From positions 186,001 to 250,000 of the forward strand of contig JAFQRW010000011.1 of the NCBI GenBank assembly GCA_017409875.1: DNA of 64,000 nt. The letters run 5' to 3'. Position 1 is the stretch's first letter. Every line of letters starts with the position of its first letter. This DNA comes from Clostridia bacterium (GTDB lineage Bacteria > Bacillota > Clostridia > RGIG6154). Both the position numbers and the translations under genes were made by a program. The notes under the pieces are model-generated. The model did no database searches and had not been told where the DNA came from. It saw only the letters and a program-made list of their open reading frames with translations. Positions 15,485 through 55,014 of this stretch are shown here, piece after piece.

Positions 15485-15525
15485 CAAAAGGGCAATCCTC
15501 TAAATATAAAAATAAAGGATTGCCC
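15485..15525 (-). terminator. Riboswitch-controlled terminator before purE
   Basis: Stem 15490-15499 / 15516-15525 on the minus strand followed by TTTTGTTG. The 5' arm GGGCAATCCT contains the GGGC of the riboswitch pseudoknot, so ligand-stabilised aptamer folding and termination are mutually exclusive. Confidence 0.85.
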
Positions 15526-15597
15526 AGACGGTCGACATAAATACCGCTTTTTATTCCATGTGGTATTATCCACTTATCCGTCAGTCATAAAAAGCAC
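15521..15597 (-). promoter_or_regulatory. ZTP/ZMP riboswitch (pfl motif)
   Basis: The minus-strand leader of purE folds as the pfl motif. P1 is a perfect 9-bp helix (15587-15595 with 15546-15554); P2 is GTGG/CCAC (15570-15573 with 15560-15563), enclosed by GACTGACGG and ATGGA joining strands. The 3' signature CCGTCTGGGCA (15521-15531) matches the family consensus CCGCCTGGGCA. This class binds ZTP/ZMP and switches on purine and one-carbon genes when 10-formyl-THF is short, by preventing the terminator. Purine and ykkC-type riboswitch consensus sequences do not fit. Confidence 0.9.
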
Positions 15598-15603
15598 ATT
15601 AAT

Positions 15604-21056: not shown

Positions 21057-21132
21057 CTGGGTGTGGCGCAGATGGTAGCGTGCTTGAATGGGGTTCAAGA
21101 GGCCATGAGTTCAAATCTCATCACTCAGACCA
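21057..21132 (+). tRNA. tRNA-Pro (anticodon GGG)
   Basis: A complete 76-nt cloverleaf with encoded CCA. Acceptor CTGGGTG/CACTCAG with discriminator A, D stem GCGC/GCGT, anticodon stem CTTGA/TCAAG, loop ATGGGGT, T stem ATGAG/CTCAT. Anticodon GGG at positions 34-36 with G37. The A32-U38 pair is the unusual conserved pair of tRNA-Pro(GGG). Confidence 0.95.
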
Positions 21133-50979: not shown

Positions 50980-51009
50980 AGCATTATAAACTATGAAGGT
51001 GTGATTACA

Positions 51010-52380
51010 TTGAAACTTATATATAAATTTGTCTTTGTCTTTTTTTTACTGATGAGTGTAAGTTTTGTAGCCCTTGCAAATCCAAGCTATGGATCATGGG
51101 CAGAAGAAGCTATTACAAGTGCAATAACAAAGAAAATTTTAAAGGATGACTATATTCAAGATTATTATTCCCCTATTACAAGAATTGAACTTGCAAGATT
51201 AATTGCTGATACTTTTGAGCAAATCAGCGATGAAATACCTGATAATTTTGAAAGTTTTATTGATACCGACGACGACTGCGCAAATATCGTCTCTGCTCTT
51301 AATATAATGAACGGTTATGGCGACGGAACATTTATCCCGAATGCATTTACAACACGTCAGGAAATGGCAAAAATTATTCTTACATATCAATCTGCAATCA
51401 CAAAAGTCCCCCTCGTTTTACCTATCGAATTCACTTCACCATTTACTGATTTTAACTACTTAAGCAACTGGGCAAAGCCGTATGTACAAAAAGCATATCA
51501 AGAGGGTTTTATCAGCGGTTATGCTGATGGAAGTTTTTCTGGTTCAAACTATGTTTCCTGGCAAGAAGCTATTGTTTTAATAGATAGAGTTTTCCCATTT
51601 AGTAATATTGATAATAAGGAAACACAAATTCTCTGTGATGACTTTAATTTGAATACTGATGTGTCCAATGGAATTTTGACTATATCGTGGGATGATATTG
51701 ACGAAACAAAAAATTACACACTTACAATAACTGAGCAAAGGCTATCACGATACGAAAATGACATTCCTCCAAATTCGCCTTTAACAATAAATCTTAATAA
51801 TGAAAGCAGTTACAGCATAAGCATAAATCCGAACAAAAAGTATTCAATAACCATTTCGTGCAAAAATATGTTTTCAGAAAAAACTATTTATACCGAAAAA
51901 TTGATTTTAGAAGATATGAATGAAATTTCAGCTAATTATCCAACCACAGAAGTTGAAGCGGAAGAAATTGTCACCGAAATTACTGTCCCAATATGGAAGC
52001 TTTCAGGCAATGAAAAAGTTCCATCTGAAGCTACATTTAAAGTCCACAACAAAATCGCACAAAAAGTAATTTTAGTTTTTGAAGAAATTTATAACGGTGA
52101 TGAACAATTCCCAATAAAAGACGTAAATGCTTATACCTGGCGTGGAGGCACAACCGAACACAATGGCGGGACTGCAATAGATATTAACAGCAATGAAAAC
52201 TACTGTATTTACAATAATGGCACAATTATCGGTACTCATTGGAAGCCTTATGATGACCCATATTCTATAACACCTTACGGCGATGTTGTAAGAGCTTTTG
52301 AAAAATATGGTTTTACCTGGGGAGCAGACGCATGGTCTAATCCAAAAGATTATATGCATTTTTCATATTTAGGTACATAA
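51010..52380 (+). CDS. Secreted SLH-domain protein with C-terminal M15 (VanY-like) peptidase
   Basis: 456 residues. Signal peptide ending near FVALA/NP (about residue 23). SLH repeats follow in about residues 24-195 (SWAEEAITSAITKKILKD, TRIELARLIADTFEQI, MNGYGDGTFIPNAFTTRQEMAKIIL, SGYADGSFSGSNYVSWQEAIVLI). A fibronectin-like middle region follows, then an M15 peptidase domain with zinc motif TEHNGGTAIDIN and KDYMHFSY. The likely role is cleavage of D-Ala-D-Ala or L-Ala-D-Glu bonds while tethered to the wall by SLH. The start is TTG 51010, with GAAGG about 10 nt upstream; GTG 51001 abuts that site. Confidence 0.82.
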   Translation: MKLIYKFVFVFFLLMSVSFVALANPSYGSWAEEAITSAITKKILKDDYIQDYYSPITRIELARLIADTFEQISDEIPDNFESFIDTDDDCANIVSALNIMNGYGDGTFIPNAFTTRQEMAKIILTYQSAITKVPLVLPIEFTSPFTDFNYLSNWAKPYVQKAYQEGFISGYADGSFSGSNYVSWQEAIVLIDRVFPFSNIDNKETQILCDDFNLNTDVSNGILTISWDDIDETKNYTLTITEQRLSRYENDIPPNSPLTINLNNESSYSISINPNKKYSITISCKNMFSEKTIYTEKLILEDMNEISANYPTTEVEAEEIVTEITVPIWKLSGNEKVPSEATFKVHNKIAQKVILVFEEIYNGDEQFPIKDVNAYTWRGGTTEHNGGTAIDINSNENYCIYNNGTIIGTHWKPYDDPYSITPYGDVVRAFEKYGFTWGADAWSNPKDYMHFSYLGT

Positions 52381-52381
52381 A

Positions 52382-52411
52382 AAAACGCCGCTTAAAAGCG
52401 GCGTTTTAATT
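52382..52411. terminator. Shared terminator of the SLH-peptidase and NhaC-family genes
   Basis: Stem AAAACGCCGCT / AGCGGCGTTTT (52382-52392, 52397-52407) with loop TAAA; T runs on both strands. Confidence 0.9.
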
Positions 52412-52415
52412 GTTG

Positions 52416-54035
52416 TCAATTCTTGTCTTTGGTTACTGCTTTAATAGCAAACAATACTGCTATCATAAGTACAATCGCTATTGGGAGCAGAATAAATGCG
52501 TTCTGGATAAAAGCTGCCAACAGATATGCAACAAACGAAACGATTGCAACAGTTATTGCATAAGGAAGCTGTGTTGAAACGTGATTAATGTGATTGCACT
52601 GTGCTCCGGCAGATGACATAATTGTTGTGTCAGAAATCGGTGAGCAATGGTCGCCGCAAACTGCACCTGCAAGACAAGCAGACATACCAATAATTAAAAG
52701 CTCACTTGTAGGCTCAAAAATTGCAGTAACAATAGGTATCAAAATACCAAATGTTCCCCATGAAGTACCTGTAGCAAAAGCAAGTACGCATGCAACTAAA
52801 AAGATAATTGCAGGTAAAAAGTTAGCCAGACCTGCAGCAGCAGATTTCATTAAAATATCCACATATTCAGCTGCACCTAAAAGGCTTGTCATATTCTTAA
52901 GAGCAGTTGCAAAGGTTAAAATCAAAATTGCAGGAACCATTGCAACAAATCCTTTTGGAATACATTCCATTGCTTCTTTAAATGTAATAACTCTTCTTGC
53001 AACAAGATAAACTATTGCAATAACAAGAGCAATTAATGCACCCCAAGGAAGTCCAACAGTTGCATCAGTGTTACCAAAAGCAGTAACAAAATCATCTCCG
53101 GCAAAGAAACCGCCAACATACAAAAGACCGATAACGCATGTAGCTACTAGCACCAAAACAGGAAGCACAAGATCAATAACCTTAGCTTTTAAATTTGTCT
53201 CTTCAACAACAGTAGCTTCTACTTTTTCACCGCAAGTATATAAGTCGCCGTTGTTCATTGCATTAAACTCATGGAGTTTCATCGGACCAAAATCAAACTT
53301 CATAACAGCAATAGCAACTACAAACACAAGAGTTAAAAGTGAATAGAAGTTGTACGGAATAGCACGAACAAAAAGCTCAATTCCGGAATATCCTGTTCCT
53401 TCTGTAAACTCTGAAACTGCAGCAGCCCACGAAGATACAGGTGCAATCATACAAACTGGTGCAGCTGTTGCATCAATTATGTAAGCAAGTTTTGCACGTG
53501 AAATTTTATGTCTGTCAGTAACAGGTCTCATAACACTACCAACTGTAAGACAGTTGAAATAGTCATCAATGAAAATTAATACACCTAAAATAAATGTTGC
53601 TATCATTGCGCCAACTCTTGACTTAATGTTCTTTTCAGCCCATTTACCAAAAGCAGCAGAACCACCAGCTTTGTTAACTAATGCAACTATAATACCAAGA
53701 ATAACCAAGAACACAAAAATTCCTGCTGTTCCCGCAGTTGCAGCAATGATACCTTCATTTAAAAGATTGTCCATTGCCATAACAGGCTGCCAGTTTGCAG
53801 AGAGTAAACCGCCCAAAACAATACCTACAAACAAAGAAGAGTACACTTCTTTTGTAATAAGAGCAAGACCTATAGCAACAATAGGTGGAACTAATGCCCA
53901 AAATGTTGAAAAATACATGCTCTGGAATTCCTCAGTTTCGCCGCCATCAGCAAAAGCAACGCATGAAATTGAAAGAACCAATGTCATAACGATGAGGAAT
54001 GCAAAGATTAACTTTTTGTTTGAAAATAATTTCAT
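52416..54035 (-). CDS. lysW: NhaC-family transporter, probable lysine transporter (LysW type)
   Basis: 539 residues, PF03553 membrane protein with about 12 hydrophobic helices. Family blocks are GVLIFIDDYFNCLTVGSVMRPVTDRHKISRAKLAYIIDATAAPVCMIAPVSSW, and a late FATGTSWGTFGILIPI and GDHCSPISDTTIMSSAGAQCNH. By homology alone it would be called an Na+/H+ antiporter. The lysine riboswitch upstream makes lysine uptake (Na+ or H+ coupled) the better prediction, as already proposed for NhaC-like LysW proteins. The N-terminus has an extra hydrophobic segment ending CVAFA, possibly a cleaved signal. Start ATG with AAGGAGG. Confidence 0.8.
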   Translation of the reverse strand: MKLFSNKKLIFAFLIVMTLVLSISCVAFADGGETEEFQSMYFSTFWALVPPIVAIGLALITKEVYSSLFVGIVLGGLLSANWQPVMAMDNLLNEGIIAATAGTAGIFVFLVILGIIVALVNKAGGSAAFGKWAEKNIKSRVGAMIATFILGVLIFIDDYFNCLTVGSVMRPVTDRHKISRAKLAYIIDATAAPVCMIAPVSSWAAAVSEFTEGTGYSGIELFVRAIPYNFYSLLTLVFVVAIAVMKFDFGPMKLHEFNAMNNGDLYTCGEKVEATVVEETNLKAKVIDLVLPVLVLVATCVIGLLYVGGFFAGDDFVTAFGNTDATVGLPWGALIALVIAIVYLVARRVITFKEAMECIPKGFVAMVPAILILTFATALKNMTSLLGAAEYVDILMKSAAAGLANFLPAIIFLVACVLAFATGTSWGTFGILIPIVTAIFEPTSELLIIGMSACLAGAVCGDHCSPISDTTIMSSAGAQCNHINHVSTQLPYAITVAIVSFVAYLLAAFIQNAFILLPIAIVLMIAVLFAIKAVTKDKN

Positions 54036-54084
54036 CCCAAACTCCTCCTTTTAAAATATGTGTTAAATTTAATATTCATATAAA

Positions 54085-54122
54085 AGCAAAATTAAAGCAC
54101 AAGAGTGAAAACGCTCTTGTGC
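54085..54122 (-). terminator. Riboswitch terminator before the NhaC-family gene
   Basis: Stem GCACAAGAG / CTCTTGTGC (54114-54122, 54097-54105) on the minus strand followed by TTTAATTTTGCTTTT. It lies directly after the lysine aptamer and is the presumed off-switch. Confidence 0.85.
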
Positions 54123-54139
54123 AAAAACCCAAAAAGATA

Positions 54140-54304
54140 ACAGATAGCGCTCCACATTTACTGTGACAGTACGCCGCATATTGTACGGAATACCAGCCTC
54201 AAAGATTTGGCAATAATCTTTAAAACTTCGGCGATAATTCCTTTCACATATTAAAAATTTGCCCATAATAATATGCTACTGATAATCACCGCACCTCTAT
54301 CAAA
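54140..54304 (-). promoter_or_regulatory. Lysine riboswitch (L box)
   Basis: The minus-strand leader carries the L-box hallmarks in order: GATAGAGGTGCGGTGATTA, AGTAGC, GTGAAAGGAATTATCGCCGAAG, GAGGCTGGTATTCCGT, GCGGCGTACTGTCACAG and GGAGCGCTATC. P1 closes between GATAG (54297-54301) and CTATC (54143-54147). Lysine binding should favour the terminator and shut the gene off. A 65-codon frame in this stretch is not a gene. Confidence 0.93.
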
Positions 54305-54326
54305 TATTAAACTTAAATACATCTAA

Positions 54327-54355
54327 ATGTTAACATAGTTTACAATCTATGTCAA
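54327..54355 (-). promoter_or_regulatory. Promoter of the lysine riboswitch transcript
   Basis: Minus strand TTGACA (54350-54355), 17-nt spacer, TAACAT (54327-54332), about 23 bases before the aptamer. Confidence 0.8.
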
Positions 54356-54375: not shown

Positions 54376-55014
54376 TCAAAAAGTGACCACGCATCTATTT
54401 ATAGGAAAACCCTTTTCTGAAAAGTTTTTTTCGTACTCAGTCATTATGTTATTATAATTATATTCAGAATTATGTAAATCAAACGTAAGCTCTGAAATCT
54501 TAGCCCCGAACAGCTCAAACTGCTCGAGTGAAAAGTCGAACAGTGGTCTGTTATCAGTTTTAAAATAAACTTCCCCGTCTTCAGATAGAACGTACTTATA
54601 CTTTTCAAGAAATGTAACGTAAGTAAGTCTTCTTTTTGCCTGACGAGATTTTTTCCACGGATCAGAAAAGTTAAGATAAATTCTTTCAACTTCTCCACAA
54701 TCAAAAATGTCAGTTAATACATTTGCATCACCAAACAAGAATCTAACATTCTTAATTTGCTCATTTTTAATTTTTTCCATAGCAAGGATTAAAACATCCA
54801 GGCACTTTTCAATTGCAACAAAATTTACATCAGGGTTCCTGCGTGCAAGCTCTAATATAAAACCACCTTTTCCACAACCAATCTCAACATGAACAGGATT
54901 TTGATTGCCAAAAAGCTTATTCCAGTTTCCTTTGTGATTTTGTGGTTCTAAAACAGCCAGCTCAATACAATTTTCAAATCTTGTGTCCCTGTTCTTTTTG
55001 CGTCTCATTCTCAT
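54376..55014 (-). CDS. trmB: tRNA (guanine-N7-)-methyltransferase
   Basis: Makes m7G46 in tRNA. 212 residues with SAM motif HVEIGCGKGGFILELARRNPDVNFVAIE and the family block LNFSDPWKKSRQAKRRLTYVTFLEKY, and FKTDNRPLFDFSLEQF. Starts 4 bases after typA; the AGGTGA site lies in the gap. Last gene of its operon. Confidence 0.96.
   Translation of the reverse strand: MRMRRKKNRDTRFENCIELAVLEPQNHKGNWNKLFGNQNPVHVEIGCGKGGFILELARRNPDVNFVAIEKCLDVLILAMEKIKNEQIKNVRFLFGDANVLTDIFDCGEVERIYLNFSDPWKKSRQAKRRLTYVTFLEKYKYVLSEDGEVYFKTDNRPLFDFSLEQFELFGAKISELTFDLHNSEYNYNNIMTEYEKNFSEKGFPINRCVVTF

Follow-up and report, generated by a model that had tools for sequence, protein, structure and literature searches.

The 64,000-nucleotide stretch analyzed here (the window; contig JAFQRW010000011.1 of the Clostridia bacterium assembly GCA_017409875.1) carries a transporter gene of the PF03553 family on its minus strand, and the interval 52416-54355 spans this gene from its stop codon to its promoter. 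Along the minus strand, a promoter-like site, a lysine riboswitch aptamer, an intrinsic terminator, a ribosome-binding site, and the gene for a 539-aa protein follow one another in that order (Table 1). The upstream neighbor on the same strand, trmB, ends 20 nt from the -35 hexamer of the promoter-like site. On the other side, a bidirectional terminator and a convergent open frame bound the gene, which is therefore a one-gene unit; a preliminary description of this DNA, made from the letters alone, had claimed that the riboswitch directly controls only this gene, and the layout bears this out. By eye, the 459-aa convergent frame looks S-layer-homology-like at its N terminus and carboxypeptidase-like at its C terminus; it had no NCBIfam match at E ≤ 1e-10. 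Elsewhere in the window, a ZMP/ZTP riboswitch (15515-15598, minus strand, 63.2 bits) and a tRNA gene (21057-21129, plus strand, 59.4 bits) were detected.

Table 1. Features of the transporter locus, in window coordinates
Feature	Position	Strand	Description	Basis
Convergent open frame	51001..52380	+	459 aa	open-frame list
Bidirectional terminator	52382..52407	.	strong; end of transcription unit	terminator scan
Transporter gene (PF03553), predicted LysW type	52416..54035	-	ATG start, 539 aa	Pfam, NCBIfam matches
Second core half	52419..53210	-	codons 276-539; ATGTSWGT and GDHCSPISDTT motifs; corresponds to first half of true NhaC	hhalign
First core half	53211..53924	-	codons 38-275; FIDDYFN motif; corresponds to second half of true NhaC	hhalign
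N-terminal hydrophobic segment	53949..54035	-	codons 1-29; ends AFA; signal-peptide-like	sequence; low model confidence at residues 1-4 and 23-35
Ribosome-binding site	54042..54049	-	AGGAGGAG	direct reading of letters
Intrinsic terminator of expression platform	54097..54122	-	hairpin and T-rich tail	folding, terminator scan
Lysine riboswitch aptamer (RF00168)	54137..54307	-		cmscan, 108.3 bits, E 6.3e-28
Promoter-like site	54327..54355	-	sigma-70 type, TTGACA-17-TAACAT	consensus scan
trmB, upstream neighbor	54376-55014	-		open-frame list, NCBIfam

The preliminary description had reported a complete L-box with promoter and terminator, and had named a lack of covariance support as grounds for giving up the aptamer. 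The covariance model RF00168 matched over its full length (positions 1-182), its 108.3 bits standing against a gathering score of 30. The promoter was recovered as a promoter-like site whose end lies 19 nt from the start of the aptamer, a placement that fits; such matches are no commoner in the stretch than chance (8, versus 6.9 in shuffles, sd 2.8). The terminator was also recovered, with a hairpin and a T-rich tail; terminator-like sites number 4 in the stretch versus 1.8 in shuffles (sd 1.6). The leader folded into the aptamer with its P1 helix, followed by a separate terminator hairpin. When the leaders of 40 riboswitch-linked relatives were analyzed together with that of the window, a hairpin and U-run at ≤ -8 kcal/mol was present within ~110 nt past the aptamer in 41/41, compared with 7/41 when each leader was shuffled once.

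The terminator loop GCGUUUU could pair with GGAGCGC of the aptamer, forming a candidate antiterminator, and the complementarity (4.80) exceeded that with shuffled downstream sequence (4.12, sd 0.15). Covariation was rejected as support for this pairing: none was found across the leaders, the observed value being reached by re-dealt motifs in 115 of 400 cases. The antiterminator was absent from the minimum-energy folds, and a transcript cut before the 3' arm of the terminator kept P1. With P1 blocked, the terminator was still in place in the fold, so thermodynamic folding alone does not demonstrate a switch. A mutually exclusive antiterminator in this leader is weakly suggested by the complementarity.

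To follow the link between RNA and gene, we searched public genomes for relatives and retrieved the 80 best of 385 (63-83% identity); most of them come from gut MAGs that bear the names Clostridia, Oscillospiraceae, or Ruminococcus. An RF00168 match lay upstream of 40 of these 80. No match was found for the other 40, which include the closest relatives, L005 and L010 (82-83% identity), as well as L016, L056, L073, and L074, where absence cannot be judged because <150 nt of upstream DNA is present or the gene is at a contig edge. Hidden riboswitches in the 40 unlinked relatives were rejected, since a covariance model built from the family itself found none up to E 5. On the tree of these near relatives the riboswitch label is scattered throughout and needs 17 changes, so the link must be old or have been regained. 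Directly upstream of the transporter gene and on the same strand, nine of the 80 near loci (L005, L006, L008, L009, L010, L012, L049, L053, and L071, all without riboswitch) have a gene that we take to be related to a DMT/EamA-type transporter, in agreement with how its L229 relative is annotated; the L. eligens relative of this gene sits downstream of the transporter.

We also scanned 299 genomes drawn from the phylum; 177 had a lysine riboswitch and 153 a PF03553 gene. From the better-scoring among the matches listed in these genomes, 80 PF03553 loci were hand-picked, 18 for an upstream riboswitch among the matches listed and 62 regardless of riboswitch. The family-built model found the riboswitch in 28 loci, namely all 18 chosen for it and 10 of the 62 others; these 62 comprised 43 long-type genes, the type of the window protein, and 19 short-type genes, and all 10 linked ones were long-type. 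A phylogeny against riboswitch-linked NhaC genes had been proposed as a check by the preliminary description. In a quick tree that joined the 80 wider loci with the window and 24 near relatives, every one of the 43 linked rows belonged to the long type (86 rows), and the short type (19 rows) had no linked row. Around 33 unlinked long-type and 7 short-type genes, the only other Rfam RNAs found were three tRNAs near one gene.

Homologues were also present in 57 named records of a plasmid collection. Eight regions were examined, and a riboswitch was found in four, at the homologues of Aeromonas caviae, Photobacterium sp. DA100, Vibrio sp. HDW18, and Pusillibacter faecalis; none was found at those of Lachnospira (Eubacterium) eligens, Vescimonas fastidiosa, Treponema saccharophilum, and Deinococcus proteolyticus. 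The Aeromonas, Photobacterium, and Vibrio homologues (L232, L233, and L234) are 36-38% identical to the window protein over 88-92% of its length. According to passages of PMC5584792, Aeromonas and Photobacterium have lysW riboswitches and Vibrionales have lysW; riboswitch-linked NhaC genes are listed there across several phyla.

PF03553 was the sole Pfam match of the 539-aa protein (168.8 bits). Homology pipelines had been expected to label such a gene NhaC; indeed, 10 of the 15 plasmid-collection matches listed (of 57) are named "Na+/H+ antiporter NhaC family protein" in public records, the remaining five of the 15 having no annotated feature. The curated models do not uphold this name. The protein scored 33 bits against the NhaC equivalog TIGR00931 (cut-off 370) and 31.3 bits against the arginine/ornithine antiporter ArcD, NF052307 (cut-off 650). 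Its best NCBIfam match, Tet(35) (NF000013), reached 205.5 bits against a cut-off of 750; this model has 369 positions only and matches residues 194-529 of the window protein. Short-type proteins fall into a group of 12 rows that we call the NhaC group, where five rows were scanned and 5/5 passed the TIGR00931 cut-off, and a group of ~440 aa (short1), where the one row scanned has PF13726 and PF03553.

Comparison of profiles by hhalign revealed that long-type proteins and true NhaC carry the same two halves in opposite order. The long-type first half matched the second half of NhaC with a probability of 98.1% and the long-type second half matched the first half of NhaC with 99.3%, versus 1.2% and 24% for the same-order pairs (the 24% belonging to the second-second pair, over 51 columns). 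Full-length comparison ranked the two crossing alignments as the top two (99.2 and 96.9%). When the long-type profile was rotated, best with a cut at about residue 252-276, one continuous alignment with NhaC covered 420 of 462 columns instead of 218, and its score rose from 153 to 217. With the short1 group, the long type aligned best in natural order; short1 rows, which we take to be YuiF-like and to include SAUSA300_0846, share the half order of the window protein. The short1 second half matched NhaC with 73.6% in the same order (73 columns) versus 93.4% for the crossed pair (171 columns); some same-order similarity exists because the halves are themselves pseudo-repeats.

The motif GDxxSPxSD marks the difference. 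It lies at relative position 0.68-0.87 in 57/57 long rows (window included; five atypical long rows, L173, L174, L200, L203, and L224, are omitted from this set), at 0.33-0.36 in 12/12 NhaC-group rows, and at 0.88-0.89 in 7/7 short1 rows. The window protein has no GDxxSPxSD in its first half, the NhaC-group position as drawn from the sampled rows, and lysine riboswitches mark, among these rows, only genes of the LysW/YuiF order, with the GDxxSPxSD half second. The PF03553 model does not see the swap, since it matches long, NhaC-group, and short1 proteins alike over their C-terminal 300 residues. Like NhaC (TIGR00931; the 462-aa antiporter of B. firmus, PMC9408914), the window protein thus consists of two halves that are distant homologues of the NhaC halves, but it differs from NhaC in their order. 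The half order of the LysW type relative to true NhaC appears, from well-supported profile evidence, to be a circular permutation. A narrow literature search for NhaC together with circular permutation found no paper; the swap is new here, and half order may be linked to substrate. For annotators, the position of GDxxSPxSD provides a simple sequence rule by which the NhaC naming can be stopped.

No solved-structure homologue was found by sequence, either with phmmer or by profile. An AlphaFold2 model built from 34 sequences (pLDDT 78, pTM 0.77) resembles members of the ion-transporter superfamily, namely ArsB, NaS1, NaDC3, an MleN-MetQ model, TRAP SiaQM, and VcINDY. The best VIA Z per structure was 15.6-20.5 over 382-425 residues, with rmsd 4.6-5.2 (ArsB 10tp_A: Z 20.5, 395 residues, rmsd 4.8; MleN-MetQ integrative model 9a59_A: Z 18.0, 408 residues, rmsd 5.0), and Foldseek TM (by query) was 0.35-0.53 for rows at E ≤ 0.001. 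The ion-transporter (DASS/TRAP/AbgT-like) fold was thus matched over most of the core. Structural alignments with the MleN model run in order, and this comparison was not used to test the half-swap. The modeled fold supports a secondary, elevator-type carrier and is silent on substrate.

To place the transporter among lysine-controlled genes, 76 whole genomes (26 + 49 and the genome of the window; five of the 80 loci omitted) were searched for lysine riboswitches, the 49-genome search with stricter filters, by which some weak matches were lost. A riboswitch-linked transporter was present in 39 genomes and absent from 37, one of which (L016) has too little DNA upstream of the gene to judge. Other lysine riboswitches numbered 28, of which 25 belong to lysine-biosynthesis genes and 3 to polar amino-acid ABC transporters. 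Where no linked transporter is present there are 14, each preceding an asd or dapA gene that scores over the curated cut-offs. The other 14 are spread over 13 genomes that do have one: asd or dapA over cut-offs follows in 10 cases and a confirmed dapB, at a distance of ~1.2 kb, in one. The remaining three precede the ABC transporters, which are named from sub-threshold best matches of the ATPase gene ~2 kb downstream. Since the other members precede lysine-biosynthesis or amino-acid ABC genes, we conclude that this riboswitch class reads lysine here and that the transporter belongs to the lysine regulon. In two genomes, G073 (L138, L139) and G045 (L132), a linked transporter occurs together with lysine riboswitches upstream of polar amino-acid ABC transporters; three lysine riboswitches are present in G073. 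An either-or arrangement, with the riboswitch before the transporter or before asd-dapA, was rejected as a general rule, a biosynthesis-gene riboswitch being present in 11/39 genomes that have a linked transporter and 14/37 that lack one, which is no mutual exclusion. In the clade of the window itself the riboswitch had seemed to move between the two places: the window genome has it before the transporter alone, and the L005 and L010 genomes before asd-dapA alone.

The window genome (1,461,971 bases, or 1.46 Mb, in 23 contigs; 98% complete) makes the locus a clean case. No second lysine riboswitch was found in it, leaving the transporter as the only gene found with one upstream, and no second PF03553 gene. 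asd, dapA, and dapB stand in a row without riboswitch, and lysA is also encoded. There was no match to the APC-type permease families AA_permease and AA_permease_2, to which LysP and YvsH presumably belong; these two families and PF03553 were the transporter families checked in this genome. One gene, one riboswitch, and no APC-type permease or second PF03553 gene found make this an unremarkable but uncomplicated representative of a predicted family, at which the old lysine-import prediction becomes directly testable.

The predicted family is LysW. Passages of PMC5584792 describe lysW (COG1757) as the most widespread riboswitch-linked lysine transporter candidate, with mention of a pH role, and it is called a candidate lysine transporter in PMC545781. 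Like LysW (COG1757, NhaC superfamily), the window protein is a long-type PF03553 protein with a lysine riboswitch upstream; it differs from the LysW described in its clostridial gut MAG lineage, in its N-terminal signal-like extension, and in that no other gene with a lysine riboswitch was found in its genome. The same riboswitch-NhaC arrangement is found at C. difficile CD1655, whose function is given as unknown in passages of a 2024 review (PMC11477304). For T-box-linked NhaC genes, tyrosine has been predicted (PMC2494555). A precedent for an amino-acid importer annotated as NhaC is S. aureus SAUSA300_0846, identified by radiolabelled uptake as the main histidine transporter (passages of PMC10817146); the window protein resembles this YuiF-type protein in being a probable amino-acid transporter that carries an NhaC annotation and is controlled together with amino-acid genes, and differs from the YuiF-type permease, which is ~440 aa long, has PF13726 at its N terminus, and takes histidine. 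In the literature searched (titles, abstract openings, and passages), no uptake assay of a LysW was found, and no paper there joins lysine fermentation, lysine aminomutase, antiporter, and transporter.

We consider it likely that the gene encodes a lysine importer of the LysW type, an elevator-fold secondary transporter probably coupled to Na+ or H+, and that an OFF switch sensing lysine controls it. Lysine import is favored because the gene is under lysine-sensing RNA control and the protein is built unlike true Na+/H+ pumps. The re-labeling of the NhaC "antiporter" as a lysine transporter in the preliminary description is supported by homology to the riboswitch-linked Aeromonas, Photobacterium, and Vibrio genes, by the failed NhaC equivalog, and by the swapped halves, transport itself being a prediction. 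Further support comes from the riboswitch upstream of half of the near relatives, from its place in a lysine regulon, and from a genome in which lysine-biosynthesis genes but no APC-type permease were found. Transcription from the promoter-like site would run through the riboswitch; at high cellular lysine the aptamer would close P1 and the terminator would stop the RNA. At low lysine, GGAGCGC at the 3' edge of the aptamer would become available for pairing with the terminator loop; the terminator would then fail, and the transporter would be made and would import lysine. The closest relatives, which lack the riboswitch, count against a lysine importer, as does the age of the LysW-type predictions, now two decades old. 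So do the lack of exclusion between transporter and biosynthesis riboswitches, the weak support for the antiterminator, and a decarboxylase match in the window genome, which leaves room for a pH role.

A published alternative (passages of PMC5584792 and PMC11477304) has the protein act as a Na+(K+)/H+ antiporter for pH control, induced by lysine starvation because decarboxylation then no longer consumes protons. We regard this as unlikely here. A match to PF01276 (Orn/Lys/Arg decarboxylase) over cut-off is present in 28/39 genomes with a linked gene, as the model would have it, and K+/H+ antiport has been reported elsewhere for SAUSA300_0846, according to PMC10817146. The 11/39 linked-gene genomes without such a match speak against it, weakly because these are draft genomes, and absence of a decarboxylase was dropped as an argument for the window genome, which has one PF01276 match (86.8 bits). 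The protein also argues against pH control: it fails the NhaC equivalog and has swapped halves, and it is the short type, with its TIGR00931-passing NhaC group, that shows no riboswitch link.

Somewhat less probable still is an exchanger, of lysine against cadaverine, ornithine, or arginine, for example, or a lysine exporter. The weak curated matches do include ArcD, at a score of 31 of 650, far under cut-off, and a DMT/EamA-type gene does lie next to the transporter gene in some near relatives, but every one of these nine neighbors adjoins a gene without riboswitch, and an OFF switch before an exporter would presumably be counterproductive. Import of diaminopimelate, an aspartate-family metabolite, or an organic acid, with lysine merely the signal, is very improbable: this fold class mostly carries anions and the riboswitch also governs asd and dapA, on the aspartate-to-lysine route, in relatives, but for a gene under the control of lysine alone the simplest assumption is that lysine is what it carries, and in 2/76 genomes this RNA also stands before amino-acid ABC transporters.

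The lysine importer proposed here would have its core oriented with the N terminus outside. The preliminary description had singled out an N-terminal hydrophobic extension ending CVAFA as an oddity. The extension is real; it is not odd, since 75/77 near rows have one (window included; rows with the core motif found), and so do 15/56 wider long rows with the core motif found. For these counts start codons were set mechanically, and seven rows without a found core motif were omitted. Among the 57 long rows, K or R follows the first core helix in 57/57, and likewise occurs at 133-141, 172-184, 246-286, and 345-355; the last ten residues contain K or R in 49/57. Stretches 80-86, 386-390, 398-404, 440-446, and 507-512 contain K or R in only 6-11 of the 57 rows, and stretch 309-324 does so in 37/57, yet is acidic on average (K+R 0.75, D+E 3.26). 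By the positive-inside rule, this pattern indicates that the long-type core starts outside. Short N-tails lack K or R in 39/40 cases. The 12 NhaC-group rows have 2-4 K/R among their first 20 residues, which suggests that these proteins start inside. A signal-peptide-like extension fits an N-out core.

These observations lead to a broader proposal, on which we see the balance as even: PF03553/COG1757 would comprise two circular permutants of one elevator fold, and the LysW/YuiF order would be an N-out, mislabeled amino-acid-uptake branch in which signal-peptide-like N termini set the core N-out, with an extracellular DnaJ-like zinc finger in many gut clostridia. The window protein has no CxxC motif in its N-terminal extension. 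In 40/77 near rows (L007, L011, L013, L026, L033-L037, L042, L059, and L064 among them), at least two CxxC motifs, mostly CxxCxG, lie between the N-terminal hydrophobic helix and the core. The DnaJ central domain PF00684 matched 4/4 scanned CxxC rows below threshold (15-30 bits, cut-off 32.7), and going by the predicted topology this DnaJ-like zinc-finger segment would be extracellular.
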